This document shows, piece by piece, positions 14,882-63,050 of a stretch of DNA of 64,000 bases (position 1 is its first letter; each line of letters opens with the position of its first letter). Source of the DNA: an uncultured bacterium (GTDB lineage Bacteria; Bacillota; Clostridia; Lachnospirales; Lachnospiraceae); the NCBI GenBank assembly GCA_947381965.1, contig CANCXX010000005.1, positions 61,973 through 125,972 of the forward strand, in the 5' to 3' direction. The translations under genes and the position numbers were made by a program. The notes below the pieces were generated by a model, which made no database searches, was not told the origin of the DNA, and worked only from the letters and a program-made list of their open reading frames with translations.

Positions 14882-14929
14882 GCAGTATCGCAGGCAATGC
14901 CTGCGATATGCAGGGGTAGAAATATGAAT
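14882..14929 (+). repeat. 48-base leader element, copy 1
   Basis: This stretch matches 63003-63050 in 45 of 48 positions and extends through the start codon and next codon of the downstream gene. TATCGCAGGCA and TGCCTGCGATA form a perfect 11-base inverted repeat around one base. GCCTGC can instead pair with GCAGG of the ribosome-binding segment GCAGGGG (14910-14916). The two folds exclude each other, one freeing and one covering the ribosome site. An in-frame ATG at 14897 would add nine residues (MPAICRGRN). Confidence 0.7.
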
Positions 14930-16372
14930 CAGAAGAATAAAATCGTTGAGGTTTACGGACTTTGGTTTGCTGATTTGGTGGCTATCGGGATTTCCTATAT
15001 TCTTGCGACCTATATCAGATTTGGAAATTTCAGGGATATGGCAGATAAAGGGATACATTTTCAGGTGTGTCTTGTTTTTCTGCTTTTTTGTACTATTTAT
15101 ACCTTTTTTCTGGATTGGAACAGAAATTTCCTGAAAAGAAGTATCCGAAAGGAAGTCAGTGAAATATTAAAATATAATGTTATTCTGATATTGACGACCC
15201 AGACCGTAATGTATTTCTTTAAATGGGCGGATGTGTTTCCCAGGCTGGTAATGATTTACTTTCCCATTCTCAATGTAATACTGACACTGGCAATTCATAT
15301 GCTGATCAAAAAAGGAATGCGGATTCATTATTCTTCTGAGATTTCCAGAATTAAAATATTGGTGATTACCCAGCGGTCAATGGCATCCGGGGTACTGGAA
15401 CAGCTTCAGGACAGTCTGGACATTAATTACCAGATTGTGGGGATTGCGTATTTGGGGGAAAATGAAGAGAAAGCTTCTGGCCGTGCAGGAGAAGGGACTT
15501 TTAAAACCAGGGAAATAGACGGGGTTCCTCTTATGCTGATAGGGGACAGATTTATGGAGGAAGTGACCCGGATGGCGGTGGACGAAGTCTTTATTTACGC
15601 GCCGGAGCTGCGGCAGAAGCAGATACGAAGGATGCTTGGCGGGTTTGATGAGATGGGAGTGGACTGCCATTACTGCCTGGAGCTTCCGGACACACAGCCG
15701 AGTAGAAGCAAGCTGGAAAATTTTGGTGGGTATTCTGTTATTACTTATACAAGATTCCAGAGCAGCTATAAGCGGATGCTGATTAAACGGGTAATGGATA
15801 TTGTGGGGGGACTGGTGGGACTTTTGATCACGCTGGTGTTTTTCCCCTTTGTGGCGCTGGCCATTAAGCTGGATTCGCCGGGCCCTGCCATGTTTTCGCA
15901 GATAAGGATTGGGCGTAACGGAAGAAGGTTTAAAATCTATAAGTTCCGCTCTATGTATGTAGACGCGGAAGAGCGGAAGAAGGAGCTGGAAGCGCAGAAT
16001 GAAATGCAGGGGTTAATGTTTAAGATGGAGAATGATCCCCGCATTACAAAGGTGGGAAGATTTATCAGAAAGACAAGCATTGACGAGCTGCCCCAGTTCT
16101 ACAATGTGGTAAAAGGAGATATGAGTCTTGTGGGTACAAGACCTCCCACTGCAGACGAGTTTGAAAAATATAACCAGTATTACCGCAGGCGCATCAGTAT
16201 GACGCCGGGATTGACAGGATTGTGGCAGGTCAGCGGCCGCAGTGAGATAGAGAATTTTGATGATGTGGTAAAATATGATCTTGAATATATTGACAACTGG
16301 TCACTGACCCTTGACATGAAGATCCTGCTGCGCACGATTTGGGTGGTGATTGCAGGGAGAGGCTCTAAGTAG
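14924..16372 (+). CDS. Initiating undecaprenyl-phosphate sugar phosphotransferase
   Basis: The 482-residue product has about four N-terminal membrane helices, a central CoA-binding-like domain (about 145-265), another helix, and a complete C-terminal sugar transferase domain: KRVMDIVGG, SPGPAMFSQIRIGRNG, IYKFRSMYVDAE, KTSIDELPQFYNV, GDMSLVGTRPP and LTGLWQVSGRS. Such enzymes transfer a sugar-1-phosphate to undecaprenyl phosphate and start repeat-unit assembly. It is the only recognisable initiating enzyme here, so the locus probably depends on it. The start region is covered by the 48-base leader element. ATG 14924 follows GCAGGGG. Confidence 0.92.
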   Translation: MNQKNKIVEVYGLWFADLVAIGISYILATYIRFGNFRDMADKGIHFQVCLVFLLFCTIYTFFLDWNRNFLKRSIRKEVSEILKYNVILILTTQTVMYFFKWADVFPRLVMIYFPILNVILTLAIHMLIKKGMRIHYSSEISRIKILVITQRSMASGVLEQLQDSLDINYQIVGIAYLGENEEKASGRAGEGTFKTREIDGVPLMLIGDRFMEEVTRMAVDEVFIYAPELRQKQIRRMLGGFDEMGVDCHYCLELPDTQPSRSKLENFGGYSVITYTRFQSSYKRMLIKRVMDIVGGLVGLLITLVFFPFVALAIKLDSPGPAMFSQIRIGRNGRRFKIYKFRSMYVDAEERKKELEAQNEMQGLMFKMENDPRITKVGRFIRKTSIDELPQFYNVVKGDMSLVGTRPPTADEFEKYNQYYRRRISMTPGLTGLWQVSGRSEIENFDDVVKYDLEYIDNWSLTLDMKILLRTIWVVIAGRGSK

Positions 16373-16388
16373 CCTGGCAGGAGAGAGG

Positions 16389-17459
16389 ATGGAAGTGAAG
16401 GAAAGGAAAAAGATAAAGGTATTAATGATTGGGCCTGACAGAAGGGTTCATGGAGGCATATCCGGAGTGGTGAATAATTATTATGAAGCCGGACTGGATA
16501 AAAAAATTGATTTGTGTTATATCGGAACCATGGTGGAGGGGAGCAGGGGACGCAAGCTATGGCAGGCGGTATGGGCATTTGCGGCGTTTTGCGTAAAGCT
16601 TCCGAGGTATCAGATTGCCCACATCAATATGGCCTCTGACAACAGCTACCGAAGAAAATCCTTTTTTATCAGGACAGCAAAATTATTTGGGAAAAAAATC
16701 GTACTTCACCAACATGGAGGCGACTTTGAGAGCTATTATTATAAAGAACAAAGTGACAACGGACGGAGAAAGATTAATAAGGTTTTGTTAATGGGGGATG
16801 CTTTTCTGGTGCTTACGCCAGTGTGGAAGGATTTTTTTAGTCATATGGTGGACCGGAAAAAAATTACCGTGCTGCCCGACGCTATTGCCCTGCCGGAACC
16901 TGCTCCAAAAGAGTATGGACAGCACAAAATTCTTTTTATGGGAAGACTTTGTAAAGAAAAGGGGATAGGGGAGCTGCTTCAGATAATGCCGGAATTAAAA
17001 AAACAATTTCCCGGCGTGCACCTTTATCTGGGAGGAATTTGGGAAGATGGGGAATTAAAAGCCAAGGCAGGAAAACACAAGGATATGATTACGTATTTGG
17101 GATGGCTTACAGGGAAAGAGAAGGAGAACTGTTTCAGGCAGTGCGATATATTTGTGATGCCCTCCTATTTTGAGGGACAGTCCGTGTCCATTCTGGAGGC
17201 CATGGCATATGGATGCGCGGTGGCAGCCTCCAACACAGGCGGCATTCCTTTTATGGTGACAGATAACCGGACTGGGCTGCTTGTTCCCCCAAAAGAGGCA
17301 GACGCCCTGAAGGAAGGGCTTTTCCGGCTTCTGTCAGATAAGGAATTGTGCAGACGGCTGGGAGAAGCGGCACGCCAAAGGGCGGAAGAAGGATTTGATA
17401 TAGAAAAGAACATGAAGCAGCTGATATCTGTTTATGAAAGGGTGTTAAGGTCTGCATGA
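16389..17459 (+). CDS. GT4 family glycosyltransferase
   Basis: This GT-B enzyme has 356 residues. The N-terminal half has RVHGGISGVVNNYY, and the C-terminal donor domain has HKILFMGRLCKEKGI, PSYFEGQSVSILEAMAYG (the E-x7-E retaining GT4 motif) and TGGIPFMV. It probably adds an early sugar after the initiating transferase, given its position 16 bases downstream. AGGAG at 16379-16383 supports ATG 16389 over further upstream starts that would overlap the sugar transferase gene. It ends in an ATGA overlap with the next gene. Confidence 0.87.
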   Translation: MEVKERKKIKVLMIGPDRRVHGGISGVVNNYYEAGLDKKIDLCYIGTMVEGSRGRKLWQAVWAFAAFCVKLPRYQIAHINMASDNSYRRKSFFIRTAKLFGKKIVLHQHGGDFESYYYKEQSDNGRRKINKVLLMGDAFLVLTPVWKDFFSHMVDRKKITVLPDAIALPEPAPKEYGQHKILFMGRLCKEKGIGELLQIMPELKKQFPGVHLYLGGIWEDGELKAKAGKHKDMITYLGWLTGKEKENCFRQCDIFVMPSYFEGQSVSILEAMAYGCAVAASNTGGIPFMVTDNRTGLLVPPKEADALKEGLFRLLSDKELCRRLGEAARQRAEEGFDIEKNMKQLISVYERVLRSA

Positions 17460-18490
17460 AGAAGTATAAAATCAGTATTATTGTGCCTGTTTATAATACG
17501 GAAAAATTTTTAAAGCGGTGTGTGGATACGCTGATGGGACAGACTTATGACAATCTGGAAATTCTCTTGGTAAATGACGGCTCCACAGACGGAAGTGGAA
17601 GACTTTGTGATTCGCTTGCCCTTTTGGATGGGCGGATCAGAGTCATTCACAAAGAAAATGGCGGATTGGTTTCAGCCTGGAAAAGGGGGCTTAGTGAGAG
17701 CGCTGGGGATTATATCAGTTTTGTGGACAGCGATGACTGGGTGGATGAAAATATGATAGAGGAAATGGCAGCTTATCTTACCGGAAATGAAAGGGAAATG
17801 GTTGCCAGCGATTATGTGATTGAAAGAGAAGGGGGAAACAGGCAGTATGTGTGGCAGGAGCTTCCGCCGGGAGAATATGACAGGAAGAAGCTGGAGCAGG
17901 AAGTGATTCCCAATTTGCTTGGGCGGGAATACCGGTATGTAACCATATCCCGCTGCATGAAGCTGACAGGACGGAAGCTTCTTCTGGAAAATTGCAGGTA
18001 CAGCGATCCGGCCATCCGGACAGGAGAGGATACCACCATTATGCTGCCCTGCCTGATTGACTGTGAACGGCTTGTGATTATGGATCATAAGGCTTATTAT
18101 CATTATCTTTATGTGACGGAGTCCATGATCCATAAGTATGATAAGGACTTATATGATAATATCAGACTGCTGCGCAGGATTACCAGGCAGATACTGCAGG
18201 ACAAATTTGAAGGGGAAACCCTTTTGCAAATGAGAAAGAAGGCGGATCAGGAGCATATTTTTATGCTGTTTTTGGTGCTGAAAAATGAGGCCAGGGGAAA
18301 CCCGGAGGGATATCGGAAAAATATACTGGCTGTGTGCAAAAGTGATGAAGTAAGAGCGCTTTGTAAAAGCACCAGGGTAACAGTGAAGGAGAAAGCGGGC
18401 AGACTGGTTTATTTAACGCTCCGTTATCCCTGCTGGGCGACAGTGATGCTGCTGCGTCTTGCTATGGTGATTTATTATAGGAATAAGTAA
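17456..18490 (+). CDS. GT2 family glycosyltransferase
   Basis: The 344-residue product has a GT-A domain with SIIVPVYNTEKFLKRCVDT, LVNDGSTDGSG and FVDSDDWVDE (metal-binding DxD type). The usual SARN segment between them reads SAWKRG here. The C-terminal 100 residues are basic and end in a hydrophobic stretch that may touch the membrane. It overlaps the upstream GT4 gene by 4 bases. Sugar specificity is not predictable. Confidence 0.85.
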   Translation: MKKYKISIIVPVYNTEKFLKRCVDTLMGQTYDNLEILLVNDGSTDGSGRLCDSLALLDGRIRVIHKENGGLVSAWKRGLSESAGDYISFVDSDDWVDENMIEEMAAYLTGNEREMVASDYVIEREGGNRQYVWQELPPGEYDRKKLEQEVIPNLLGREYRYVTISRCMKLTGRKLLLENCRYSDPAIRTGEDTTIMLPCLIDCERLVIMDHKAYYHYLYVTESMIHKYDKDLYDNIRLLRRITRQILQDKFEGETLLQMRKKADQEHIFMLFLVLKNEARGNPEGYRKNILAVCKSDEVRALCKSTRVTVKEKAGRLVYLTLRYPCWATVMLLRLAMVIYYRNK

Positions 18491-18512
18491 AGCAGATAAC
18501 AAGGGGGACATA

Positions 18513-19544
18513 ATGGGAAAAAATCCACTGGTTAGTGTGATCGTTCCTGTTTATAATGGGGAGGATTATCTGGAAAAATGTGTGGAGCGTATTGAGAATC
18601 AGACTTATGATAACTTGGAGGTTCTTATTGTAAATGATGGTTCCCGTGACAAAACGGCACAGATATGCGAAGGACTGGCCTTACGCTATAAAAACATACG
18701 GCTGCTTACCCTTTGTGATGAAGGCGTGTCGGCGGCAAGAAATGCAGGGCTTGAGGCGGCGCAGGGGGAGTATGTCACTTTTGTGGATGCAGACGACGGG
18801 CTTTTGCCAGATATGGTTGCTGTTTTATATCAGTGCATAGAGAGAACGGGAGCGGATGTGGCAGGGTGCGGTTTTTTTATCTGGAAGGAAGAGCAGGAAT
18901 TTGCCCATACTGTCTGTAAGGCAGGCAGAGAAGAGGACATAAAAGTCTATCAGCCGGCTGAATTTTTTGAGCAGGAAGTCTTAAAGGGAAACAGCCGCTG
19001 CTGGAGTAAGCTGTATAAGCGTTCGTCCATAGACAGCCTGCGGTTTAGGAAGGGGCTTACCATTGGAGAGGACATGCTGTTTCTGGTGGATCTGCTTTTA
19101 CAGATAAAAGCCCTGGCGGAAGTGGACTATAAGGGATATGGGTATTTCCGGAACCCAAAGGGAGCCATGGGGCGTGCATTTCGTCCTGATTATATGGATC
19201 AGATTAGCTGCTGGGAGATTGCAAGGGAAAAGACAGAGGATATTGCGGCTTTGGCAAAAGAGTGCCAGGCGGACCGTTTAGCTCAGATGAAATGTCAGGT
19301 TACAGTGCTTTTAATTATGGCGATAATGTTGACAGCCGGAAAAATTGCCAGGCTCTCCGGCCGGGAAAGAAAAAAGCAGGCGGAGTATATTGGCATCTGC
19401 CGGGATAAAATAAGAAAAGAGCTGCAGGCGTCGGGAGCTTATAATATGCTTCCCTTGGGATATAAGGTAAAGGCAAAGCTGTTTGCCGGCGCGCCGGCGG
19501 CCTATTTGTGGCTGTATCATTTCAGATCGGAAAGGAAACAGTAG
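18513..19544 (+). CDS. GT2 family glycosyltransferase
   Basis: This 343-residue product has the same architecture as its neighbour: SVIVPVYNGEDYLEKCVE, IVNDGSRDKT, VSAARNAGLEAA and FVDADDGLL. The match is partial, so it is a family member and not a recent duplicate. AAGGGGGAC provides a strong ribosome site 22 bases after the previous stop. The stop codon is directly followed by the start of the methyltransferase gene. Confidence 0.85.
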   Translation: MGKNPLVSVIVPVYNGEDYLEKCVERIENQTYDNLEVLIVNDGSRDKTAQICEGLALRYKNIRLLTLCDEGVSAARNAGLEAAQGEYVTFVDADDGLLPDMVAVLYQCIERTGADVAGCGFFIWKEEQEFAHTVCKAGREEDIKVYQPAEFFEQEVLKGNSRCWSKLYKRSSIDSLRFRKGLTIGEDMLFLVDLLLQIKALAEVDYKGYGYFRNPKGAMGRAFRPDYMDQISCWEIAREKTEDIAALAKECQADRLAQMKCQVTVLLIMAIMLTAGKIARLSGRERKKQAEYIGICRDKIRKELQASGAYNMLPLGYKVKAKLFAGAPAAYLWLYHFRSERKQ

Positions 19545-20351
19545 ATGATTGATATCAATAATATGTCCGATAAAACGGCAATAAAGGAACAGTACAAAAA
19601 TTCAGATAATCTTAAGCTGCGGAAAGGCTTACATGAAAAATACAGTGTCAATAAGGTTGGATTTCAAAAGTGGATGTTTGAACAGTATCCCTTTCGGGCA
19701 AAGATGAAGGTTTTAGAGTTAGGAAGCGGAAGGGGTGAGCTGTGGAATTATTATTTTGAAAATGAAATGCTGCAGGGCTATGAAATGGATATTACCGTTT
19801 CGGACTTTTCTGATGGAATGGTGGATTATTTGCAGCATACTCTTCAGGGAAAAAGAATATCTGTCAGGAAGATAGACATATTAAATATACCATTTGAGGG
19901 GGATATGTTTGACCTTATAATAGCAAATTCCATGCTATATCATGTGAAGGATATTGATTTGGCCCTTTCTGAAGTAAAACGGGTTTTAAAAAAGGATGGG
20001 TTGTTTTACTGTGCCACTTTTGGAATGAATGGAACGACCCGGCATCTTTTTAAGGCATTAGATGAACTTGGCATTCCATATAACCATGAAGCCAATGTTT
20101 CCTTTACTTTACAGAACGGAATGCAGTTACTTAAAAAGCACTTTGGCAGGGTAAAACGTTATGACTATGAGGATGCGCTTCTGATTGACAAAGTTGAGGA
20201 TTACTTAGAGTATATATATTCAATGGCGTCTCTTAAGGGGCTTGACTGGAAATATTATGATATTTTGCTAAACTACTTTCATTCCCAAAAAGTAAACGGA
20301 TATCTGCACATACCCAAAGAATACGGAATGTTTGTGGCCGGAAAAGAGTAA
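19545..20351 (+). CDS. SAM-dependent methyltransferase of the glycan locus
   Basis: The 268-residue product has motif I VLELGSGRGELW near residues 56-67, YEMDITVSDFSDGMVDYL after it, FDLIIANSMLYHVKDI as motif IV and VLKKDGLFYCATFG as the following strand. It belongs to class I SAM methyltransferases. Position among glycosyltransferases and next to a pyruvyl transferase suggests methylation of a sugar in the repeat unit. The ATG abuts the stop of the GT2 gene. Confidence 0.82.
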   Translation: MIDINNMSDKTAIKEQYKNSDNLKLRKGLHEKYSVNKVGFQKWMFEQYPFRAKMKVLELGSGRGELWNYYFENEMLQGYEMDITVSDFSDGMVDYLQHTLQGKRISVRKIDILNIPFEGDMFDLIIANSMLYHVKDIDLALSEVKRVLKKDGLFYCATFGMNGTTRHLFKALDELGIPYNHEANVSFTLQNGMQLLKKHFGRVKRYDYEDALLIDKVEDYLEYIYSMASLKGLDWKYYDILLNYFHSQKVNGYLHIPKEYGMFVAGKE

Positions 20352-20402
20352 GCACGCCAACGTTATAAAAGACGCTGGCACAGGCTGGAATGAGGAGAAG
20401 AT

Positions 20403-21599
20403 TTGGACAACAGATTGATTATGTATATGCACGCAGGCAGCGGCAATCACGGCTGTGAGGCTATTGTGAACAGTGTCTGTCATATGATAAAGGAAAAAGT
20501 TCTGCTGGTAAGTTACCGTGGAGAAGAGGACGCATCCTATTCCTTAAAAGGACTTTGCGATATCCTCTCGGAGCGCAGTTTTAACGGCCATAAGCTGGCT
20601 CATGTTCTTTACTATATTTACCGCAGGCTTACAGGGGATGGGGAAAGTTTTATCAGGTACCGCTATCAGGATGTGTTTAAAGGAGAGAGGGCGTCGTTAG
20701 CAGTTTCCATCGGCGGTGATAATTATTGTTATGAAAGTATGTTAAATGACTTGCGGCTTGCCAATTCTGCCTTTAACCAAAAAGGCACAAAGACAGTGCT
20801 GCTGGGCTGCTCCATAGAGCCAAAGCTGCTTGAAAATAAGCAGATTGTGGAGGACCTGGCAGGGTATCATACCATTATTGCAAGGGAAAGCATAACTTAC
20901 AGGGCGCTTAAAAAGGTTTTTACGGAAAGGGGAAAGAAAGGTCCGGCTCTTCTTTGCTATCCTGACCCGGCTTTTACCTTACAGGGGAAGGAGGCGCCTT
21001 TGCCGGAAGGGTTTGCGGCAGGAAATACGGTGGGAATTAATGTGAGCCCTATGGTGCAGGATAAGGAAACCCAGGAAGGCATTACTCTGGAAAATTATCA
21101 GGAGCTGATACAGTATGTAATTGACCATACGGATATGCAGGTTGCGCTGATCCCCCATGTGGTCTGGGAGCAGAATGACGACAGAAGGCCGGTCCACGAG
21201 CTTTATGGGATTTTTAAGGAAACCGGAAGGGTGGTGGAGATCGGAGATGGAACCTGTGAAGAGTTAAAAGGAATGATTGCCAGATGCCGGCTGTTTGTGG
21301 GGGCCAGAACTCACGCCACTATAGCGGCGTATTCTTCGCTGGTACCTACGCTGGTAGTGGGGTATTCTGTGAAGGCCAGGGGAATTGCGCAGGATTTGTT
21401 TGGAACCTGGGAGCGGTATGTAATTCCGGTCCAGAATCTTGAGCGGCCGGAGGATTTGACAGAGGGCTTTAAGTGGCTGTTTTCCCATGAAGAGGAAATC
21501 AGGACACATCTACAAGAAGTTATGCCTGATTATAAAAATAAGGCGCTTTTGACAGGGAAAGAAGTGGACAGATTATGGGAAGAGTTCAGTCGGCGGTAA
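20403..21599 (+). CDS. Polysaccharide pyruvyl transferase family protein
   Basis: The 398-residue protein matches the CsaB/WcaK-type pyruvyl transferase fold: MHAGSGNHGCEAIV at the N-terminus, SIGGDNYCYE, TVLLGCSIEP, IIARESITYRAL and FVGARTHATIAAYSS near residues 300-314. The family adds ketal pyruvate from phosphoenolpyruvate to sugars, giving the glycan negative charge. The start is a TTG, supported by AGGAG at 20393-20397 with 5-base spacing. It overlaps the Wzx gene by 25 bases. Confidence 0.85.
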   Translation: MDNRLIMYMHAGSGNHGCEAIVNSVCHMIKEKVLLVSYRGEEDASYSLKGLCDILSERSFNGHKLAHVLYYIYRRLTGDGESFIRYRYQDVFKGERASLAVSIGGDNYCYESMLNDLRLANSAFNQKGTKTVLLGCSIEPKLLENKQIVEDLAGYHTIIARESITYRALKKVFTERGKKGPALLCYPDPAFTLQGKEAPLPEGFAAGNTVGINVSPMVQDKETQEGITLENYQELIQYVIDHTDMQVALIPHVVWEQNDDRRPVHELYGIFKETGRVVEIGDGTCEELKGMIARCRLFVGARTHATIAAYSSLVPTLVVGYSVKARGIAQDLFGTWERYVIPVQNLERPEDLTEGFKWLFSHEEEIRTHLQEVMPDYKNKALLTGKEVDRLWEEFSRR

Positions 21600-23107
21600 A
21601 AAATATAGCCTTTGGGCAGATTGGAAATTTAGTCACCCAGCTTCTTAATTTTGTGCTCCGGACGATTTTTATTGCCCATCTGGGGGACACCTTAAACGGG
21701 GTAAACGGTCTGTACACCAGCGTTTTGTCTGTTCTTTCCATGGCGGAGCTGGGCATCGGCACGGCCTTAAACTACAGTCTTTATAAGCCGGTGGCACAGG
21801 GGGATATCAAAAAAGTTAAAGCTTATATGCTTTTATACAAAAAGGCTTACCGGATTATAGGCATAGTAGTGGCGGTAATCGGGATTGGAATTTCCCCCTT
21901 TCTGCCCTGTCTGGTAAAACAGCCGGAGGGGGTAAGCGTAAGGGATCTTACCCTGTATTATTTTATATTTCTGTTTAACACTGTAAGCACATATTTTGTG
22001 GCATATAAATACAGTCTGGTAAACGCAGAACAGAAAAATTATATTCAGACCAATATCCTTACGATTACCAAAATGGTAACAGTGGTTTTGCAGATAGTTG
22101 CCATTCTTGCCACAGGCAATTATTATGTGTATCTGCTGACGGCGGCGGCAGTGGAGCTGCTCCAGAAGATTTTTGCGAGCATATATCTAAACCGCAGATA
22201 TCCCTATTTGAAGGAGAAAGATGCCGGAAAGCTTTCAAAGGAGGAAACCGGGGAAATTATTACAAAGACCAAAGCGCTGGTATTTCATAAGGTAGGGGAT
22301 GTGGCAAGGCTGCAGACTGACAGTATGATTATCTCCGGTTTTATTAACATTACCATAAGCGGTTTTGTGGACAATTATAATCTGGTAATCAATTCCATTG
22401 CCAATGTGGTAAATATTTTTTTTAATTCGGTGCTTTCCAGCTTTGGAAATCTCTTTGCCACGGGAACAAAGGAAAAGCAGTATCAGATTTTTAAAGTATA
22501 CCGTTTTGCGGCCTGCTGGATTTATGGGTTTTCCGCTGTTGGATTTGCCATGCTGCTGACGCCCTTTGTGCAGATTTGGTTTGGAGATAACAGAAAAACT
22601 CTGGCTTTTTCTGTTGTTATATGTATTTTGATTGATTATTATTTCAAAGGTGATAGAATTGTATTATCAAATTTTAAAACAGCAGCAGGCGTGTTTGAAC
22701 AGGATAAGTATTTAGCGCTGATACAGGGAGCGGTTAATCTGGTGGTTTCCATTGTGCTGGTGCGCAGAATCGGGCTTATGGGGGTTTACATTGGAACCAT
22801 AGTATCGGGGCTGATTGCCAATGTGACAAAGCCTGTGATTATTTATCAGGTGATTTTGCGGCGTCCAGTAAAGGAGTATTTTGCAGATTCCCTTAAATAT
22901 ACGCTGACTGTGGCGGCCATAGCAGGCCTTCTCGGAGTGGTTAAAGGGATAGTAATGCCGGAGGTGACGGTACTTTCCTTTGCATTGATGTTTGTAATTA
23001 TCTGTGTGGCGTTTAACGGCGTTTTCCTTCTGCTTTTTGGAAGGACAGAGGAATTTGGATATTTGTATGGGCTTGTCAGAAATAAAGTGAAGCGGAAATC
23101 AAATTAA
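21575..23107 (+). CDS. Wzx-type oligosaccharide flippase
   Basis: The 510-residue polytopic protein has about 12 to 14 predicted helices and the N-terminal pattern of polysaccharide exporters of the MOP superfamily: SAVKNIAFGQIGNLVTQLLN, then TALNYSLYKPVAQGD. It should flip undecaprenyl-linked units to the outer face of the membrane. It starts 25 bases inside the pyruvyl transferase gene. Two ABC exporters in the same locus could do related work, so product assignment is open. Confidence 0.87.
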   Translation: MGRVQSAVKNIAFGQIGNLVTQLLNFVLRTIFIAHLGDTLNGVNGLYTSVLSVLSMAELGIGTALNYSLYKPVAQGDIKKVKAYMLLYKKAYRIIGIVVAVIGIGISPFLPCLVKQPEGVSVRDLTLYYFIFLFNTVSTYFVAYKYSLVNAEQKNYIQTNILTITKMVTVVLQIVAILATGNYYVYLLTAAAVELLQKIFASIYLNRRYPYLKEKDAGKLSKEETGEIITKTKALVFHKVGDVARLQTDSMIISGFINITISGFVDNYNLVINSIANVVNIFFNSVLSSFGNLFATGTKEKQYQIFKVYRFAACWIYGFSAVGFAMLLTPFVQIWFGDNRKTLAFSVVICILIDYYFKGDRIVLSNFKTAAGVFEQDKYLALIQGAVNLVVSIVLVRRIGLMGVYIGTIVSGLIANVTKPVIIYQVILRRPVKEYFADSLKYTLTVAAIAGLLGVVKGIVMPEVTVLSFALMFVIICVAFNGVFLLLFGRTEEFGYLYGLVRNKVKRKSN

Positions 23108-23136
23108 TTTAAAATACAAGCGGGGGACGGGGTATT

Positions 23137-54556: not shown

Positions 54557-54672
54557 GCAGGGGAATTTAATGCAGATAATTGCGGATATGGTCTGTCGTG
54601 TATTTATAGACAGCAAAACCGGAGCAGGTTAAGCGGGGCAGAAGAGAAAGAGCGAAATATGGAGGATTTACA
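54557..54672 (+). other. Intergenic stretch with a 20-codon frame
   Basis: A 20-codon frame (54570-54632, ATG after AGGGG, ending DSKTGAG) is the only structure seen. It ends 40 bases before the next gene, which has its own GGAGG site. It may be the remnant of a gene lost next to rfbF. Confidence 0.2.
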
Positions 54673-55188: not shown

Positions 55189-55232
55189 TAAATTTGTTTG
55201 ATAGGTTCTCTGTAATATATGGGAGTCAGGTT

Positions 55233-56426
55233 ATGAATATATTGTATATTGCCCATGAAAGTCGTCTGGGCGGGGCAAATTTATCTCTTCTTGGGCTTTT
55301 GGATGAACTGCAAAAGAAGCATAAGGTTTATGTAGTGATTCCTATTAAAAATGGTTTTCTGGCAGATGAATTGAGAAAAAGAGGCATCGGTTATTTTTAT
55401 GTGCATTCTTTCTGGTGGATGCACGCGCCTGCTTCCTCTCCAATTTTGTCTTTTTTGAAAAAATCCATATATAGCGTTCTGCTGCCGAATAACTATCTTT
55501 GCGCCTTGCGGCTGAAAAAAATAATAAAAAAATATAAAATAGAAATCATTCATTCTAATTCCAGTGTTATCAATACAGGCGGTATTCTTGCAAAAATGAC
55601 AGGCTTGCCCCATGTGTGGCATGTCAGGGAATTTGGGCAGGAGGACTTTGGTTTTTTCCCTATGGGTTCTTATAAAAAAATATATGCGTATATTTCTTCT
55701 CACAGCCACAGAGTGGTGGCAATTTCGGAGGCAATTGCCCGTAAGGTGGCGGACATGATTGAACCGGAAAAGCTTCAGGTAGTATATAATGGTGTGGGGG
55801 AAGAGCACATGTACAGAAAACCGGAGGTCAGAGTGACAAAAGAAAATATCCGGTTTTTAATCAGCGGAAGGATCAGCCCTGAAAAAGGGCAGGAAGAGGC
55901 TGTGCGTGCAATGGGAGCGTTAAAGAAAAAAGGATATCGGAACATACAGCTTTGGGTTGCAGGGGCAGGAGACAGCGGGACACTTAGGCAGATTGCGGCC
56001 AGGGAGGGCGTGGCGGATATAGTAACATTTTTAGGTCCGGTGGAGGATATGCCTTCCTTACGAAAAAATGTGGATGTGGAGCTGGTATGCTCCAGGTGTG
56101 AAGCCTTTGGCAGGGTAACGGTTGAGGCGATGCTGGGGTCTAACCCGGTAATCGGCACAGATACAGGGGGAACCAGAGAGCTTATTTTGGAAGGAAAAAC
56201 CGGTTATTTATACCAGCCGGGAAATATAGAAGAACTGTCGAACCGGATGGAGCGGTTTTTGCAATGGCCGGAGCAAATCGGCCGGATGGGAAAGAAGGCC
56301 TGGGAAGAGAGCAGCGGAAAATATACAAGCAGTAGAAATGCCAGGGAAATAGAAATGATTTACAAGGAGCTGCTTTTAAAGGAAGAAGGAACATTTTTGC
56401 AGAAAGTTGGAGAAAAGGACAAATAA
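55233..56426 (+). CDS. GT4 family glycosyltransferase
   Basis: The 397-residue GT-B protein starts MNILYIAHESRLGGANLSLL, the usual GT4 opening. It has LPHVWHVREFGQEDFGFF, RVVAISEAIARKVAD, IRFLISGRISPEKGQEEAV and SRCEAFGRVTVEAMLGSNP with the E-x7-E pair. GGGAG at 55221-55225 supports ATG 55233 over an upstream in-frame start at 55194. It is the last glycosyltransferase before the nonulosonic acid module and could transfer to or beside that sugar. Confidence 0.87.
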   Translation: MNILYIAHESRLGGANLSLLGLLDELQKKHKVYVVIPIKNGFLADELRKRGIGYFYVHSFWWMHAPASSPILSFLKKSIYSVLLPNNYLCALRLKKIIKKYKIEIIHSNSSVINTGGILAKMTGLPHVWHVREFGQEDFGFFPMGSYKKIYAYISSHSHRVVAISEAIARKVADMIEPEKLQVVYNGVGEEHMYRKPEVRVTKENIRFLISGRISPEKGQEEAVRAMGALKKKGYRNIQLWVAGAGDSGTLRQIAAREGVADIVTFLGPVEDMPSLRKNVDVELVCSRCEAFGRVTVEAMLGSNPVIGTDTGGTRELILEGKTGYLYQPGNIEELSNRMERFLQWPEQIGRMGKKAWEESSGKYTSSRNAREIEMIYKELLLKEEGTFLQKVGEKDK

Positions 56427-56455
56427 GGGCGTTTGATGGATGAGGGGAGATAAAG

Positions 56456-57493
56456 ATGGGAAAAACATTTATTATTGCTGAGGCAGGAGAGAATCATAAT
56501 GGGAAGCTGGAACAGGCTTTTGCCCTTATTGATAAAGCGGCATGGGCAGGAGCTGATTGTGTGAAATTCCAGACTTATGTGACCGGAGAACTGATTTCGA
56601 AAAGGGCGGAAAAGGCAGAGTATCAGAAGGCGGCTACAGGAAATGATGAAACACAGTACGAGATGCTGAAAAAACTGGAGCTTTCTTTCGAAGAGTTTGC
56701 GCGGCTTAAAAAGTATGCAGATGAAAAGGGAATTTTGTTTTTATCCACCCCCTTTGACATACCCAGCGTCAGGTTTTTAGACAGTATTGGTATTTTCTGC
56801 TTTAAGGTTCCATCCGGGGAGATTACCAATTATCCTTATCTGATGGAAATTGCAGGGACAGGAAAGGATGTTATTATGTCCACCGGAATGGCGGAGATTT
56901 GGGAGATAGAGCAGGCTGTTTCCGTACTTAGGGAAGGCGGGGCAGGGGATATCAGTCTTCTGCACTGCAACACAGAATATCCTACGCCTATGGAGGATGT
57001 GAATCTTCGGGCAATGTTGTCGCTTAAAGAAAAATTTGGAGTAAGGGTGGGGTATTCTGACCACACCAAAGGGATTGAGGTGCCTGTTGCCGCCGTAGCT
57101 CTTGGGGCGGAGATTATTGAAAAACATTTTACCCTTGATCATAATATGGAGGGACCTGACCATAAAGCAAGCCTGGAGCCAGGGGAGCTTAAGGCAATGG
57201 TGGAAGGAATTAGGAATATTGAAAAGGCCCTTGGAAATGGGGTAAAAACAGTCAGCAAGTCGGAGAAAAAGAATATAATTGCCGCACGCAAGAGTATTGT
57301 GGCAGCAAGGGCAATTGCAAAGGGAGACATGCTGACAGAGGAAAATCTTGCAGTCAAAAGACCGGGAGGCGGCCTTTCGCCTATGAAATGGAAGGACATA
57401 ATTGGAACCTGTGCTGTGAGGGATTTTCAGGAGGATGAAATGATATGCCTGGAAGATGTTTTCCAGAGCAGGCAGACAGGGAGCAATTTATAA
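56456..57493 (+). CDS. neuB: N-acetylneuraminate/legionaminate synthase family (NeuB)
   Basis: The 345-residue protein has a TIM-barrel NeuB domain (FIIAEAGENHNGKLEQA, ADCVKFQTY, FLSTPFDIPSVRFLD, KVPSGEITNYPYL, ISLLHCNTEYPTPMEDVNL, VGYSDHTKGIEVPVAAVALG, IIEKHFTLDHNMEGPDHKAS) and a C-terminal antifreeze-like SAF domain (AIAKGDMLTEENLAVKRPG). The family condenses phosphoenolpyruvate with N-acetylmannosamine or a related 6-carbon sugar to a nonulosonic acid. The exact product cannot be read from the sequence. Confidence 0.93.
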   Translation: MGKTFIIAEAGENHNGKLEQAFALIDKAAWAGADCVKFQTYVTGELISKRAEKAEYQKAATGNDETQYEMLKKLELSFEEFARLKKYADEKGILFLSTPFDIPSVRFLDSIGIFCFKVPSGEITNYPYLMEIAGTGKDVIMSTGMAEIWEIEQAVSVLREGGAGDISLLHCNTEYPTPMEDVNLRAMLSLKEKFGVRVGYSDHTKGIEVPVAAVALGAEIIEKHFTLDHNMEGPDHKASLEPGELKAMVEGIRNIEKALGNGVKTVSKSEKKNIIAARKSIVAARAIAKGDMLTEENLAVKRPGGGLSPMKWKDIIGTCAVRDFQEDEMICLEDVFQSRQTGSNL

Positions 57494-57525
57494 GGCGTAA
57501 TCTAAGGAAATGAGGAAGATGGGGA

Positions 57526-58494
57526 ATGAAGGTTGTGGTAATTGGGCTGGGGTCCATGGGGAAAAGAAGAATCCGCCTGTTAATGCAGTATGATAGGGCC
57601 TTGGAGATTGTGGGAATTGACCAGTCGATGGAACGGAGAACGCAGGCGGAAGAAATGTTTGGAATTAAAACGCTGGAGGGATTCTCTTTTGTGGAGGAAG
57701 GTGATTTTGACTGCGCTTTTATTGCAACTTCGCCGCTTTCACACAACGCTCTGATAAAAGAATGTATTTTGAAAAATATCCATGTGTTTACGGAAATGAA
57801 TCTTGTAGCAGACGGTTATGATGAGAATATACAGCTGGCCAGGGAGAGGGAGAAGGCTTTATTTATTTCTTCTACATTTTTATACAGGGAGGAAATCCGG
57901 TATATTAACAGGAAAGTAAAGGAAAGCCGGGGACCGGTAAATTATGTGTATCATGTTGGACAGTATCTTCCGGACTGGCATCCATGGGAGTCTTATCAGG
58001 ACTATTTTATCGGCAACAAGAGAACAGGCGGCTGCAGGGAGATTTTTTCCATTGAGCTGCCATGGCTGCTTGATACGTTTGGAGACGTAAAAGGAATGTC
58101 CTCCCTGAAGGGGAAAAACACAAGTCTTGCCATTGATTATGCGGATAATTACATTGTCAGCTTGGAGCATGAAAGTGGGGCGAAGGGCGCGCTGCTGGTG
58201 GATGTTGTTTCAAGAAAAGCGGTAAGAAATCTGGAGGTTTTTTCAGAGGATTTGTATCTGGGGTGGAACGGTTCCCCGGAGGGACTTTATTATTATGATT
58301 TTAGTCAAAAGAAAGATGTATATGTGAACCTGTATGAAAAGGTGGAGCGGCGGGAGGGGTATGAAACCTTTATTGTGGAAAACGGGTATCTGCATGAGAT
58401 AGAAGCGTTTTTCCGGCAGGTAAAGGAAGGTGTTCTGCCAAAATACGATTTTGAGAAGGATAAAAAAGTGTTGGAGATTATTGACAGGATTTAA
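57526..58494 (+). CDS. Gfo/Idh/MocA-like oxidoreductase, non-canonical catalytic motif
   Basis: The 322-residue protein has the NAD(P)-binding GLGSMGKRRIRLL at its N-terminus and IATSPLSHNALIKECIL as in the family. The usual EKP motif with catalytic Lys reads TEMNLVADGY, and the later His/Asp region is GGCREIFSIELPWLLD in place of the canonical GTDLIHEWDYL found in its neighbour at 60192. It is therefore a distinct subgroup or a protein with altered chemistry. It lies between neuB and an AAA/nuclease-like gene. Confidence 0.78.
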   Translation: MKVVVIGLGSMGKRRIRLLMQYDRALEIVGIDQSMERRTQAEEMFGIKTLEGFSFVEEGDFDCAFIATSPLSHNALIKECILKNIHVFTEMNLVADGYDENIQLAREREKALFISSTFLYREEIRYINRKVKESRGPVNYVYHVGQYLPDWHPWESYQDYFIGNKRTGGCREIFSIELPWLLDTFGDVKGMSSLKGKNTSLAIDYADNYIVSLEHESGAKGALLVDVVSRKAVRNLEVFSEDLYLGWNGSPEGLYYYDFSQKKDVYVNLYEKVERREGYETFIVENGYLHEIEAFFRQVKEGVLPKYDFEKDKKVLEIIDRI

Positions 58495-58596
58495 AACAGA
58501 TATTTACTGAGGCGTGCAGATGTTGGAAATGATTTTTCAAACACGCTCCAGGGCGGCCGATTAGACAGTTTTTTGTTTGGCGGAGGGCTACAGGAT

Positions 58597-60177
58597 ATGG
58601 GACGCTATTTAAATATAACAACAAAAGGATTTAAGGAAAGTATACAATCAGAAATATATGTGGACAAAACTGGCATAATCGCGTTGTTAAACCGGATGAT
58701 AGATACAGAACAAAAATATGTCTGCGTAAGCCGGCCAAGAAGATTTGGAAAGTCTATGACGGTGAAAATGCTTTCTGCCTATTATAACATAGAAGCGGAC
58801 AGCGATGAAATGTTCTGTAACATGAAAGTTGGAGAAGATGATACTTATAAGAAATACCTGAATAAGTATGAAGTTGTGCTGGCCAATATGCAGGAATTTT
58901 ACAGCAGAAATACAGATATAGATTTGATGGTCCGCAGGATAAATGATGAGATATGCCGTGAACTTAAAAAGAAATATCCGGATGTTGAATATACAGATGA
59001 AAAAAATCTGGTAGAGACCATGTATGATATCTTTCTTTCAACAAACAGAACCTTTATTATACTTGTTGATGAATGGGATTGCATTTTCCGGGAAGCAGGG
59101 TGTGGCGAGGAGGGGTGGCAGAAGTACCTGAATTTTCTCCGTTATTGGATGAAAGATAAACCCTATGTCAGTCTTGCCTATATGACAGGGATACTCCCCA
59201 TAAAAAAATATGGAAATCATTCGGCGCTGAATATGTTTACAGAATATTCTATGACCAATCCCAAAAGAATGGGGTGTTACATGGGATTTACAGGTAGGGA
59301 GGTGGAGAAGCTCTGCATACAATACAGGATGAGCTTTGAAGATGTGAAGGTGTGGTATGATGGGTATTCGTTTGAGGGGAGATTTGCGATCTACAGTCCT
59401 AAGTCTGTGGTGGAGTGTCTGACCAGCCATATTTTTGATAATTACTGGAATCAGACAGAAACCTTTGAAGCTCTGAAAATATATATCCAGATGAATTATG
59501 ACGGGTTAAAAGACAGTGTGGTTGAGATGATTGCGGGAAACAGGGTAAGGATTAACACAGGGAGCTTTACTAATGATATGAAAACCTTTCATACAGCAGA
59601 TGATGTGTTAACCCTGCTGGTTCATCTAGGATACCTTGCCTATGATTTTGAATGGAAGGAAGTATATATTCCCAATAAAGAGGTAAGAAATGAATTTTTA
59701 AATGCAGTGAACGTGATTGGCTGGAATGAAATTATTGTGGCAGTGAAAAATTCTGAAAGGCTTCTTAAAAGTCTTTGGGATAAGGACGAAAAGGCCGTTG
59801 CTGCCGGAATAGAGAAAGTGCATCAGGAAAATATATCAATTCTGAAATATAATGATGAAAATTCGCTAAGCTGTACGGTTAGTCTTGCATTTTATGCAGC
59901 ACAGGAATATTATATGATATTCAGGGAAATGCCTGCGGGAAAAGGATATGCGGATCTGTTCTGTCTGCCAAGGACAAAATATCAGGACAAACCGGCAATA
60001 ATTATAGAACTGAAATGGAATAAAAGTGCAACAGGGGCTATTGCGCAGATAAAGGATAAAAATTATATAGCGGCATTAAAGGGATATAAAGGGAAAGTAC
60101 TGCTGGTGGGAATCAGTTATGACAGAGATATTAAAATCCACACATGTGTTATTGAAGATTGGCGTGGATACTTGTAA
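58597..60177 (+). CDS. AAA-ATPase-like and PD-(D/E)XK nuclease-like protein
   Basis: The 526-residue protein begins MGRYLNITTKGFKES, then YVDKTGIIALLN and the P-loop RPRRFGKSMTVKML (about 46-59). Walker B-like ILVDEWDCIFRE lies near 155-166. The C-terminal YADLFCLPR and AIIIELKWNKS give the Asp and Glu-x-Lys of PD-(D/E)XK nucleases. The family is widespread and often multicopy in Clostridia and Bacteroides; its role is not settled, and selfish or defence functions have been suggested. GGAGGG precedes ATG 58597. It splits the two oxidoreductase genes of the module. Confidence 0.87.
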   Translation: MGRYLNITTKGFKESIQSEIYVDKTGIIALLNRMIDTEQKYVCVSRPRRFGKSMTVKMLSAYYNIEADSDEMFCNMKVGEDDTYKKYLNKYEVVLANMQEFYSRNTDIDLMVRRINDEICRELKKKYPDVEYTDEKNLVETMYDIFLSTNRTFIILVDEWDCIFREAGCGEEGWQKYLNFLRYWMKDKPYVSLAYMTGILPIKKYGNHSALNMFTEYSMTNPKRMGCYMGFTGREVEKLCIQYRMSFEDVKVWYDGYSFEGRFAIYSPKSVVECLTSHIFDNYWNQTETFEALKIYIQMNYDGLKDSVVEMIAGNRVRINTGSFTNDMKTFHTADDVLTLLVHLGYLAYDFEWKEVYIPNKEVRNEFLNAVNVIGWNEIIVAVKNSERLLKSLWDKDEKAVAAGIEKVHQENISILKYNDENSLSCTVSLAFYAAQEYYMIFREMPAGKGYADLFCLPRTKYQDKPAIIIELKWNKSATGAIAQIKDKNYIAALKGYKGKVLLVGISYDRDIKIHTCVIEDWRGYL

Positions 60178-60191
60178 AATGAGGAAGGCGG

Positions 60192-61130
60192 ATGAAAAAT
60201 TATTATAAAATAGGCTTTTGTGGTCTGGGATCCATTGGTAAAAGACATCTGAAAAATACGGTAAGGTATCTGACAAAACAGGGCTGGGGATATGAAATTG
60301 ACGCTATCAGAAGCGGCATGGGAGGGAGTCTGGATATGGAACTTTCAGCTTGTATCTCCAGACAATATACGTATGAAGATTGTATTCCGGCAGACTATGA
60401 TATTATTTTTATTACCAATCCCACAGCCATGCACAGGGAGAGTATCAGGAGGTATCAGGACCGTACCAAAAGCATGTTTATTGAAAAACCGGTACTGGAA
60501 AGGGGCAGCCATCTGTTGGAACCTTTACCGGAAAAGCTGACAGGCTATGTGGCCTGTCCTTTGCGTTATACAAAGGTACTGCAGTATGTGAAACAGAATA
60601 TTGACTGCCAGAGGGCTTATTCTGTCAGGGCGGTGTGTTCCACTTATCTTCCTGGGTGGCATCCGGGGGAGGATTACCGGAAGTCATACAGCGCCCGGAA
60701 AAGTATGGGCGGCGGTGTGGGCACAGACTTGATTCATGAATGGGACTATCTGTTATGGCTGTTTGGAAAACCGAAGGAGGTTAGGACAATACAGGCAAAA
60801 GTATCGGAGCTGGAAATTGACAGCAACGATATTGCGGTTTACATTGGACGGTCGGACCATACGGTTTATGAACTGCATCTGGACTACTTTGGAAAAGCGG
60901 AAACAAGGAAACTGGAGATACATTTTCCGGAGAAAAGGATTGTGGTGGATATCCGAAACGGAAAGATTTCCTTTAGCGATGGTACAGAAGAGATTGTTTT
61001 TGAAGAAAACAGGGACGACTATCAGATCAGGGAAATTGCACATTTCTTTGATATAATAAACGGTGTGTGTGAAAACGATAACTCTATTGAGCAAGCCATG
61101 GAAGCTCTTAGGATTGCCTCTGGTGAGTAA
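60192..61130 (+). CDS. Gfo/Idh/MocA family oxidoreductase
   Basis: The 312-residue protein has a Rossmann motif GFCGLGSIGKRHLKN, FITNPTAMHRESI, the canonical SMFIEKPVLERGS with catalytic Lys and MGGGVGTDLIHEWDYLLWLFG with the conserved Asp/His region. It should be an NAD(P)-dependent sugar oxidoreductase. In company with neuB, neuC and a CMP-sugar synthetase it probably modifies a precursor of, or the finished, nonulosonic acid. The start follows the AAA gene by 14 bases with GAGGAAGGCGG upstream. Confidence 0.85.
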   Translation: MKNYYKIGFCGLGSIGKRHLKNTVRYLTKQGWGYEIDAIRSGMGGSLDMELSACISRQYTYEDCIPADYDIIFITNPTAMHRESIRRYQDRTKSMFIEKPVLERGSHLLEPLPEKLTGYVACPLRYTKVLQYVKQNIDCQRAYSVRAVCSTYLPGWHPGEDYRKSYSARKSMGGGVGTDLIHEWDYLLWLFGKPKEVRTIQAKVSELEIDSNDIAVYIGRSDHTVYELHLDYFGKAETRKLEIHFPEKRIVVDIRNGKISFSDGTEEIVFEENRDDYQIREIAHFFDIINGVCENDNSIEQAMEALRIASGE

Positions 61131-61161
61131 TGGGTGACAGGCGGGAAAGGAGGTCTTTTTT

Positions 61162-61803
61162 ATGGAAGAGATTCTTCTGCTGGGGACAGGCGGACATGCC
61201 CACAGCGTAGCAGACAGTATTGAACAGGGAGGAAAGTATCATATTGCAGGCTTTCTGGATTTAGAAGAAAAAAAAGGGCTGCGGTATAAGGAATATGAAG
61301 TGATTGGAACAGATGACGACCTGGAAGAGCTTTATAAAAAAGGGATACGGAACGCCTTTGTCACCTTAGGATATATGGGAAAGGGAACTGTCAGGGATGC
61401 TTTATATGATAAAATAAAAAAGAGTGGATACCATCTGCCCAATATTATTGACCCGTCCGCTGCAGTAGCGCCGGATGTGAAAATGGGAGAAGGCATTTTT
61501 GTGGGAAAACAGGCAGTGGTGAATGCAGGCGCCCGAATTGGAGATATGTGTATTATCAATTCAGCGGCAGTGGTGGAACATGACTGTGTGGTTGGCCGAT
61601 TTTCACATATTGCGGTAGGAAGCGTTTTGTGCGGCGGCGTGTATGTGGGAGAGCGGACCCTGATAGGCGCAGGCACAGTGGTGATACAGGAAGTGGCTGT
61701 GGGAGAGAATGTATTGATAGGGGCAGGAACGGTTGTCACCGGAAATGTTCCTGGCGGAGTGATTAAGTATGGAAGGGTAGAAAGAAAACGGGACGGGGAA
61801 TGA
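61162..61803 (+). CDS. neuD: NeuD-type acetyltransferase
   Basis: The 213-residue protein has the PglD/NeuD N-terminal fold (LLLGTGGHAHSVADSIE) and a C-terminal left-handed beta helix: DVKMGEGIFVGKQAVVNAG, AVVEHDCVVGRFSHIAVGS with catalytic His, LIGAGTVVIQEV, LIGAGTVVTGNV. NeuD and PglD acetylate amino- or hydroxyl groups of nonulosonic or bacillosamine-type sugars using acetyl-CoA. GGAGGT precedes the ATG, and ATGA couples it to neuC. Confidence 0.87.
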   Translation: MEEILLLGTGGHAHSVADSIEQGGKYHIAGFLDLEEKKGLRYKEYEVIGTDDDLEELYKKGIRNAFVTLGYMGKGTVRDALYDKIKKSGYHLPNIIDPSAAVAPDVKMGEGIFVGKQAVVNAGARIGDMCIINSAAVVEHDCVVGRFSHIAVGSVLCGGVYVGERTLIGAGTVVIQEVAVGENVLIGAGTVVTGNVPGGVIKYGRVERKRDGE

Positions 61804-62957
61804 AAAAAATATGTGTGGTAACAGGCACAAGGGCGGAATATGGACTGCTAAAGCCTTTATTGTGCCGGATAAAGGAAGGGAAAGAGGCAGAGCTTTGCCT
61901 GATAGTTACCGGTATGCACCTATCGCCGGAATATGGGCTTACCTATCGGGAAATTGAACAGGACGGCTTTCTGGAATATGAAAAAAATGAGATGTTGTTA
62001 AGTTCGGATACGGCAAATGGCGTGGCAAAATCCATGGGACTGGGAGTGATTGGTTTTGCAGATATTTATACACGGGTTTCTCCCCATATGGTGGTTCTCT
62101 TGGGGGATCGGTTTGAAACCTTCGCGGCGGCTTCGGCGGCGATGCTGCAGGGAATACCCATTGCCCACCTTCATGGAGGAGAGCTGACGGAAGGGGCTGT
62201 GGATGATGCCATGCGTCATGCAATTACCAAAATGAGCGCCCTGCATTTTGCGGCAGCTCCCGGATACCGGAAGCGGATTATCCAGATGGGGGAGATGCCG
62301 GAAAATGTCTACTGTGTGGGCGCACCGGGTATAGAAAATATAAAGGCGCAGAAATTAATGGAAAAAGGGGAGCTTGAGGAGAGCATACAGTTTTCCCTTG
62401 ATAAGCCTTTTGTAATAGTTACCTATCATCCGGTCACGCTTGAAGCAAATTCGGCAAAAGAGCAGTTTCGTAATTTATTAGATGCCCTTTCTGTCCTGCC
62501 TTATAAAGTGATTTTTACAAAGGCAAATGCAGACGCGGAGGGAAGGGTGATTAACGGGATGATCGACCAGTATACTGCGGAACACGCTGAAAATACAATT
62601 GCATTCACTTCTTTGGGAATGATACGTTACTTAAGCGCACTTCGGTTTTGCCGGATGGTTATTGGAAATTCTTCAAGCGGAATTATAGAAGCGCCTTCTT
62701 TTGGAGTACCAACAGTAAATATCGGTCTGCGGCAGCAGGGACGGGAGCGGGCGGCGTCCGTGACAGACTGCGGCAATGGAACAGAGGAAATTTTAGCGGC
62801 GGTACAAAAGGCAGAGGACATGTATGCCAAGGGAATGCTGGAGGAAATAAAGAATCCTTACGAAGGAGAAAACACTTCGGGGAAGATTTATCAGTATATT
62901 TTAGAATATCTGGACAAAAATAAAAATGAATCAAAAAGGTTTTATGACCTGCCCTGA
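61800..62957 (+). CDS. neuC: UDP-GlcNAc 2-epimerase, hydrolysing (NeuC-like)
   Basis: The 385-residue protein has VVTGTRAEYGLLKPLL, GDRFETFAAASAAMLQG, IAHLHGGELTEGAVDDAMRH, VIVTYHPVTLE and VIGNSSSGIIEAPSFGV, the full pattern of hydrolysing epimerases. NeuC releases UDP and yields N-acetylmannosamine from UDP-GlcNAc; LegG does the same on a 6-deoxy-diacetamido sugar. Dehydratase and aminotransferase genes needed for the latter are not seen in the window, which mildly favours a ManNAc-type route. Confidence 0.9.
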   Translation: MKKICVVTGTRAEYGLLKPLLCRIKEGKEAELCLIVTGMHLSPEYGLTYREIEQDGFLEYEKNEMLLSSDTANGVAKSMGLGVIGFADIYTRVSPHMVVLLGDRFETFAAASAAMLQGIPIAHLHGGELTEGAVDDAMRHAITKMSALHFAAAPGYRKRIIQMGEMPENVYCVGAPGIENIKAQKLMEKGELEESIQFSLDKPFVIVTYHPVTLEANSAKEQFRNLLDALSVLPYKVIFTKANADAEGRVINGMIDQYTAEHAENTIAFTSLGMIRYLSALRFCRMVIGNSSSGIIEAPSFGVPTVNIGLRQQGRERAASVTDCGNGTEEILAAVQKAEDMYAKGMLEEIKNPYEGENTSGKIYQYILEYLDKNKNESKRFYDLP

Positions 62958-63002
62958 TTTAGAGTGCGTTTGATTTATACTTTAAGGAGAGAGAAGTTTG
63001 GA

Positions 63003-63050
63003 GCAGTATCTCAGGCAATGCCTGCGATATGCAGGGGGAGAAAAATGAAT
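63003..63050 (+). repeat. 48-base leader element, copy 2
   Basis: This copy matches 14882-14929 with three changes: T for G in the first arm of the inverted repeat, G for T next to the ribosome site and A for T before the start codon. It keeps CAGGCAATGCCTG and the alternative CCTGC/GCAGG pairing, and its ribosome segment is stronger (GCAGGGGGAG). The in-frame upstream ATG at 63018 would again add nine residues, MPAICRGRK. Confidence 0.7.

Follow-up and report, generated by a model that had tools for sequence, protein, structure and literature searches.

The window, i.e., the whole stretch of 64,000 nucleotides (nt) analysed here, lies on contig 5 of a 4.3 Mb genome (G000) from an uncultured Lachnospiraceae bacterium and contains two near-identical 48-base sequences, each placed across the start codon of a gene. 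The first (bases 14882-14929) precedes an initiating sugar phosphotransferase (14924..16372, plus strand; Bac_transf, PF02397) and the second (63003-63050) a cytidylyltransferase/CMP-sugar synthetase-like protein (63045..63800, plus strand; CTP_transf_3, PF02348). An original prediction held that the two sequences are alike, that both end inside the second codon and that the two genes are unrelated, and it interpreted the pair as a leader element of two glycan genes. The likeness is confirmed at 45 of 48 positions, far above chance expectation; both stretches reach the last base of codon 2, and Pfam scans detected no family common to the two proteins. The restriction to two glycan genes is not sustained, as a 70-nt query taken from copy 1 has 32 BLAST matches in G000, or 30 places without two reverse-strand readings of the palindrome. 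The 48-base stretch is the 3' half of a dispersed repeat of approximately 75 nt, and both the genome-wide family and a further hairpin (hairpin A), present 5' of the 48-mer in many copies, had been overlooked.

Both window copies are on the plus strand. In copy 1, hairpin A (AGTTTAGAAG-GAAA-CTTCCAAACT, one mismatch) occupies 14848..14871, as judged from sequence, folding and two-sided stem changes, while hairpin B (TGCA-g-TATCGCAGGC-AAT-GCCTGCGATA-TGCA; 14881..14912) is supported by sequence, covariation and model matches. The element-borne Shine-Dalgarno (SD) sequence CAGGGGT (14911..14917) follows, its last G standing 7 nt from the start codon. To the left lies an SD-like GCAGAGGTAG (14837..14846), which holds the stop codon of the upstream open reading frame (ORF, 13908-14846) and may be either a native SD or the relic of an older unit's end. 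Copy 2 retains of hairpin A only the relic AAGTTTGG (62994..63001, recognised by comparison with other copies) fused to hairpin B (63003..63033, one stem mismatch; sequence, model matches and folding); the remainder appears to have been lost, as by deletion between two TTGG direct repeats. Its element-borne SD is CAGGGGG (63032..63038; sequence and placement), and a probable native SD, AAGGAG (62984..62989), sits displaced upstream, as suggested by its sequence and by the general left-flank test described below. Of the six pairs in the GCAGGC/GCCTGC stem proposed for both copies, one is lost in copy 2, where the 5' arm is TCAGGC.

Aligned copies define a unit of ~75 nt that comprises hairpin A (consensus AGTTTGGAAG-TAAA-CTTCCAAACT), a linker (NNTTATTGG, also given as TTATTGG), hairpin B (TGCAG TATCGCAAGC NNN GCTTGCGATA TGCA, preceded by TTGG) and an SD with its spacer (GGGGTATAA, also given as GCRGGGGTATAA); the start codon follows. 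Units also occur in tandem arrays of 2 or 3, mostly spaced ~73-75 nt apart. The 179 copies collected across all genomes include 43 first units whose hairpin A is perfect and a further 21 copies that are downstream members of tandem sets; a recognisable hairpin A is absent from some copies. The stem of hairpin B covaries: across 29 copies, 23 cells display two-sided changes, a value reached by 0/500 shuffles, as is its covariation score, and slid versions of the stem perform much worse. Two weaker measures separate less well, since 5 pairs with two-sided changes were matched by 24/500 shuffles and 13 further pair types by 278/500. For hairpin A, 5 pairs carry two-sided changes among 19 variants (0/500 shuffles), these being hand-picked distinct 24-nt forms that make up a subset of all forms seen; in relatives its sequence is different and the pairing is kept. 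The shuffles for both stems leave the relatedness of the copies uncorrected. Comparison of the window and three other loci with Rfam returned no match at the gathering score (best sub-threshold match 14.2 bits vs a cutoff of 65.7), and no report of the repeat was found in the literature searched, a body of text without most subscription papers.

A covariance model of the full unit matches G000 86 times at E<=0.001 (a small number of them possibly reverse readings) and 133 times at E<=1. Of the latter, 100 were placed relative to genes, the 33 omitted being partial reverse-strand readings and matches weaker than ~E 0.003; two weaker matches (C30:18813 and C62:17963) were retained, as both are also BLAST matches. 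In order to avoid a bias towards start codons, placement was counted with a model of hairpin B only, which yields 65 places at E<=0.01, or 62 without three reverse readings, all of them among the 100 placed matches. At 48 of these 62 places the unit immediately precedes a same-strand start codon (46 ATG, 2 GTG/TTG; ORF of at least 60 codons), with the codon 11 nt past the hairpin in 31 of the 48 copies. A further 6 places are upstream members of tandem copies and 8 are of other kinds; at 6 of these 8 an ATG at the same spot opens a short frame, and one adjoins a terminator-like hairpin downstream. The C57 and C67 places share 2,058 nt of identical surroundings, which may mean that a single locus was assembled twice. 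At seven loci the match to an 88-nt unit reaches 94-99% identity across 72-88 nt, a degree of likeness that suggests recent copying.

The genes behind the unit have little in common. Pfam families could be assigned to 40 of the 47 target genes scanned (the C67 duplicate being the one omitted from the 48), and 7 have no family at 1e-8. The families include methionyl-tRNA synthetase, the phage-integrase/Xer type, SpoIIM, DXP reductoisomerase, TsaD, RlmN-type radical SAM, a KaiC/DnaB-type ATPase (which we take to be RadA-like), FBPase, Iso_dh, NAD-DNA ligase, YqfD, Bac_export_3 and SPOUT methyltransferase, along with regulators and signalling proteins (three MerR, MarR, AraC and two histidine kinases). 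Five of the 47 look glycan-related by family, namely the two window genes, a UDP-GlcNAc epimerase, a GT2 glycosyltransferase and a LytR-CpsA-Psr protein. A glycan-specific leader is therefore rejected, target families being mixed. The original prediction had expected homologues in front of other glycan genes across Lachnospiraceae: the covariance search did recover homologues with compensatory stem changes before other genes, but not a set of glycan targets.

Presence of the repeat among genomes is patchy. The full model matches 20 of 60 relatives' genomes, i.e., 20/36 in the same genus and 0/24 in other families of the order, with 1-91 matches per positive genome (91 in G029 and 86 in G000), so that copy number within the genus ranges from 0 to 91. 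A family-wide search, with nearly one genome per genus, was positive in 17/299 genomes (16/298 genera); as at most 18 candidates were scored per genome, its copy counts are lower bounds. Many of the compared genomes are drafts of tens to hundreds of contigs. Many copies elsewhere retain hairpin A, hairpin B, SD and ATG, the weakest being without a clear hairpin A. An exact 22-base pattern searched in an 84,980-species collection occurs in 18 stretches, 10 from Lachnospiraceae, 1 from Acetatifactor and 7 from a single metagenome-assembled genome titled 'bacterium'; an exact pattern was absent from viral contigs, and plasmids gave no match. One phage-labelled scaffold from human faeces (MT836421.1, Bacteriophage sp.) carries an intact unit at 9450-9530 (L273; 65.5 bits) right after GAGGAG. 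Five of its six scanned ORFs are of bacterial type (response regulators, LytTR, GHKL kinase, FtsX, ABC) and one has no family, two further ORFs lying outside the scan; the scaffold is probably mislabelled host DNA and not a phage carrier. Viral, phage and plasmid carriers are accordingly rejected.

Comparison with relatives covered four target genes. In G000, dxr (DXP reductoisomerase) has 2 tandem units and tsaD has 3; none of the 29 orthologous leaders from other species fetched for each gene (out of 35 and 34 further genomes that matched, respectively) has a model match at E<=0.01. The nearest signals are a 16.1-bit match (E 0.13) overlapping the dxr start in G034 and a 26.6-bit match ~0.6 kb upstream of tsaD in G020. 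The distance from the upstream stop codon to the dxr start is 287 nt in G000 vs 16-126 nt in the 29 other species. The G000 dxr leader (L106) also has, ~170-280 nt before the start, a further palindromic repeat-like sequence between the upstream gene and the array, which is unseen in the relatives' leaders compared. At proC (pyrroline-5-carboxylate reductase, P5CR), the interval is 85 nt in the carrier G008 vs 2 nt in its close relative G019, the flanks being 87% and 84% identical on the two sides. G008 has 83 extra bases at the ATG, in the order upstream stop, ~12 nt, unit, ATG, while in G019 the SD-ATG stretch is uninterrupted (upstream stop, TGGAGATGCGT, ATG); therefore, the unit adjoins the start codon, with the old leader seemingly kept upstream of it. 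The fourth gene encodes an Rrf2 regulator. Its promoter region is common to four species, two of which carry a unit there (G008 and G019) and two of which do not (G012 and G018). This unit is located between the promoter region and the native SD, away from the start codon. The upstream region of the same gene (L199, L244, L245, L246) retains in all four species a promoter-like stretch around ATACAATTCATATA...GTCGGAATT, which is possibly the regulator's own operator.

The sequence to the left of the unit frequently resembles a ribosome-binding site. When the 16 nt left of a perfect hairpin A were paired with the anti-SD tail in the 43 first units, the median was -6.1 kcal/mol vs -2.9 in each of two control windows farther upstream (Wilcoxon p 4e-6 and 1e-4); native ribosome sites of 36 window genes have a median of -6.5 kcal/mol. 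A stricter set, which drops 8 flanks resembling the end of an older unit, leaves 35 with a median of -5.7 kcal/mol (controls -2.9 and -3.0; p 1e-4 and 0.005). The left neighbour of the unit is thus often, but not always, a native SD. A target extended 3' of the ATG is rejected, as a purine follows the ATG in 137/150 copies vs 33/36 control genes, a count from which the 29 of 179 copies without an ATG in range are omitted.

The best reading of these observations, and a probable one, is that of a non-autonomous, strand-specific mobile repeat of ~75 nt that lodges 3' of an SD and brings its own SD as a substitute. It is preferred because the repeat is dispersed, forms tandem arrays, varies patchily in copy number and has near-identical copies, empty sites and one insertion visible at base level; its functional side is deduced from sequence. 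On the coding strand, the unit would insert 3' of an SD-like host sequence, in most cases immediately before the start codon, pushing the host SD upstream; the SD at its right end would take over, the gene would stay translated and the insertion would be nearly silent. Insertion 3' of a native SD by a unit with its own right-end SD would explain the presence of the repeat before probably essential genes. The new SD could in turn receive another unit, yielding arrays of 2-3. More speculatively, the folded single strand might be mobilised by an IS200/IS605-type (Y1) transposase cutting beside SD-like sequences. A more general proposal, put forward tentatively and with less than even confidence, is that the ribosome-binding site serves as an insertion address: a single-strand transposase or a reverse-transcriptase route would recognise an SD-like sequence and insert the two-hairpin unit 3' of it, the terminal SD of the unit would restore translation and form the next target, and other SD-ended repeats of the genus, among them a triple unit preceding a nucleotidyltransferase gene, would use the same strategy.

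Several points weigh against this mobile-repeat reading. Eight of the 62 places have no following ORF of at least 60 codons. Pairing of -5 kcal/mol or stronger occurs in only 26/43 left flanks (control windows 9/43 and 12/43) and in 20/35 of the stricter set (controls 8 and 11); the stricter test weakens the argument from SD-like flanks, too little to shift the odds. proC is the only filled/empty pair that is exact at base level, with the left edge judged by eye. In the Rrf2 leader the unit precedes the native SD, which means that insertion is not confined to the SD-ATG gap, a position that favours an SD-like or other short target over start codons alone. No mobilising enzyme was found among the Y1_Tnp matches and the loci examined, other transposases not having been searched; the 4 Y1_Tnp matches of G000 (probably 3 copies) do not have the repeat at their ends, the only neighbour being a weak 16.9-bit match ~0.8 kb away, and a link to these transposases is consequently rejected. 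No excision or new insertion was observed in the genomes compared. Units may also have inserted at random and been selected for their position afterwards.

An autonomous element with the same ends was not seen among the loci already collected, which were the only ones examined. The candidate for a long autonomous version, a copy at G000:C27:57302, was rejected, no transposase being found beside it. That locus (G000:C27:57302-57344, L253) is a relic with hairpin A and without hairpin B, and it provides the stop codon of an AraC-type gene.

The rival that survives best, and nevertheless an unlikely one, is a cis-regulatory RNA regulon, in which hairpin B at the SD would bind a protein or small RNA controlling ~50-100 genes. 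Placement at ribosome sites, the single strand and the compensatory stem changes would all be expected of it; weak, diverged members also lie at start codons, although the model that finds them includes SD and ATG columns. However, a regulon fits poorly with the absence of the repeat from dxr and tsaD in 29/29 other species each, with a copy number spanning 0-91 within a genus and with tandem arrays of 2-3 units, and the 47 targets are without a single functional theme. Predicted SD accessibility is also like that of native genes (0.45 in the 48 element genes vs 0.55 in the 36 native window genes, p 0.14). Single genes may have secondarily co-opted a unit for regulation.

Slightly less probable still is a spread that needed no transposition enzyme, in which ribosome sites would have exchanged the unit through gene conversion or ectopic recombination. 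The unit spans SD to SD and so has short SD homology on both sides, and tandem arrays are consistent with unequal exchange; nevertheless, SD identity amounts to a few bases only, the flanks of the copies are otherwise unrelated, and proC presents a single insertion with flanks that align on either side. The recombination seam of the original prediction is not supported, the copies standing in unrelated surroundings and looking like insertions of a repeat, not the edges of a duplicated segment.

Hardly tenable is a translational switch linking the first and last glycan steps through anti-sequester and sequester folds: a CCTGC:GCAGG pairing is possible in both window copies, a standard or G-U pair is kept in 92.4% of cells and the folds of copy 2 differ by 1.7 kcal/mol (-22.5 predicted vs -20.8 for the forced sequester), but the pairing has no compensatory change and shuffles equal or better it while the main stem covaries, the forced sequester of copy 1 (-21.3 kcal/mol) is 9.3 less stable than its predicted fold as A + B (-30.6), and glycan-related targets number 5/47. 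What stands of the leader element is its conservation, the hairpin at the ribosome site and the compensatory stem changes. The in-frame loop ATG of the upstream peptide MPAICRGR is present in both window copies, as had been stated, but only 5/48 copies overall have an ATG in the loop, so that a conserved leader peptide is rejected. An open in-frame ATG 13-45 nt upstream does occur in 13/48 copies vs 0/36 control genes (Fisher p 0.0004); this excess accompanies ATGs inside the hairpin and is not a kept feature.

The nearest known strategy to that of the mobile repeat proposed here appears to be that of MIRUs (mycobacterial interspersed repetitive units), as judged from their description. These units are oriented like the gene that they accompany and also occur in tandem. 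A review describes them as apparently mobile and as inserting at start codons, where an internal ORF is coupled to the gene at a -4 nt spacing (PMC12548453). Both are short, mobile-looking repeats at start codons that would do little harm to the host gene, and start-codon insertion in gene orientation is found here at 48/62 places, with 6 tandem-upstream and 8 other. In contrast to MIRUs, the present repeat has two covarying hairpins and its own SD, is not characterised by a coupling mini-ORF and belongs to another host phylum. Mini-ORFs of the MIRU type ending at -8..+1 occur in 18/48 copies vs 9/36 control genes (p 0.25), and such a coupling ORF is rejected as not above control genes.

REP/BIME sequences with TnpA-REP (RAYT) are likewise many-copy intergenic palindromes with possible single-strand mobilisation, and are described in PMC8266576 as carrying, on the 5' side of the palindrome, a conserved tetranucleotide that is usually GTAG. 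The present hairpins differ from these in that A and B are unlike each other, are fixed in order and orientation and terminate in an SD. At the foot of hairpin A in the 43 first copies, GTAG occurs once, ATAG 4 times and TTAG twice, the rest being mostly NAAG; GTAG is present in some hairpin variants of other genomes. A TnpA-REP gene associated with the repeat was not found among the 4 Y1_Tnp matches, other transposases not having been searched.

Non-autonomous elements derived from IS200/IS605 have a hairpin near each end and insert as one strand beside a short target, with no evident target duplication. The present repeat resembles them in its two unlike hairpins and its single orientation relative to genes; on the target side, the observations are SD-like left flanks in 26/43 first copies and one base-level empty site. 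It differs in that none of the Y1 matches is a transposase copy bearing these ends and in that its SD-like target is a putative one. The guide and cleavage sites of IS200/IS605 are treated in PMC8266576.

If the mobile-repeat reading is true, gut bacteria translate dozens of their ordinary, probably essential genes from a repeat-borne ribosome site, which would constitute a clean case of a parasite paying for its place by restoring the function that it interrupted. Filled and empty alleles in close relatives would then serve as a natural experiment on the effect of hairpin-by-SD leaders on expression. The case would also be a warning that searches for well-covarying RNA motifs can catch mobile repeats instead of regulons.

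Other repeats that end in an SD were also noted. One such family is represented at G000:C16:23959-24133 (minus strand, L254) by three tandem units of ~74 nt (ATGGAGGATACTGTGAAAAATAAATTTTTCACAG...GGCAAGA), which stand immediately in front of a presumably rmlA-like nucleotidyltransferase gene (PF00483), and by a single unit at G000:C61:1599 (L255). In G008 and G019 the present repeat has, as its hairpin A, a close variant of the hairpin of this family, AGTGTGAAAAATAAATTTTCACACT. Within the window, positions 63800-64000, behind the CMP-sugar synthetase gene, hold two occurrences of a repeat containing AGAGGAAAAGCTGGATGAAAAGCAGACAGAATTTCCTCTGAGGAGAAAAGG, a hairpin followed by an SD-like GAGGAG, which is possibly another repeat in the same style.

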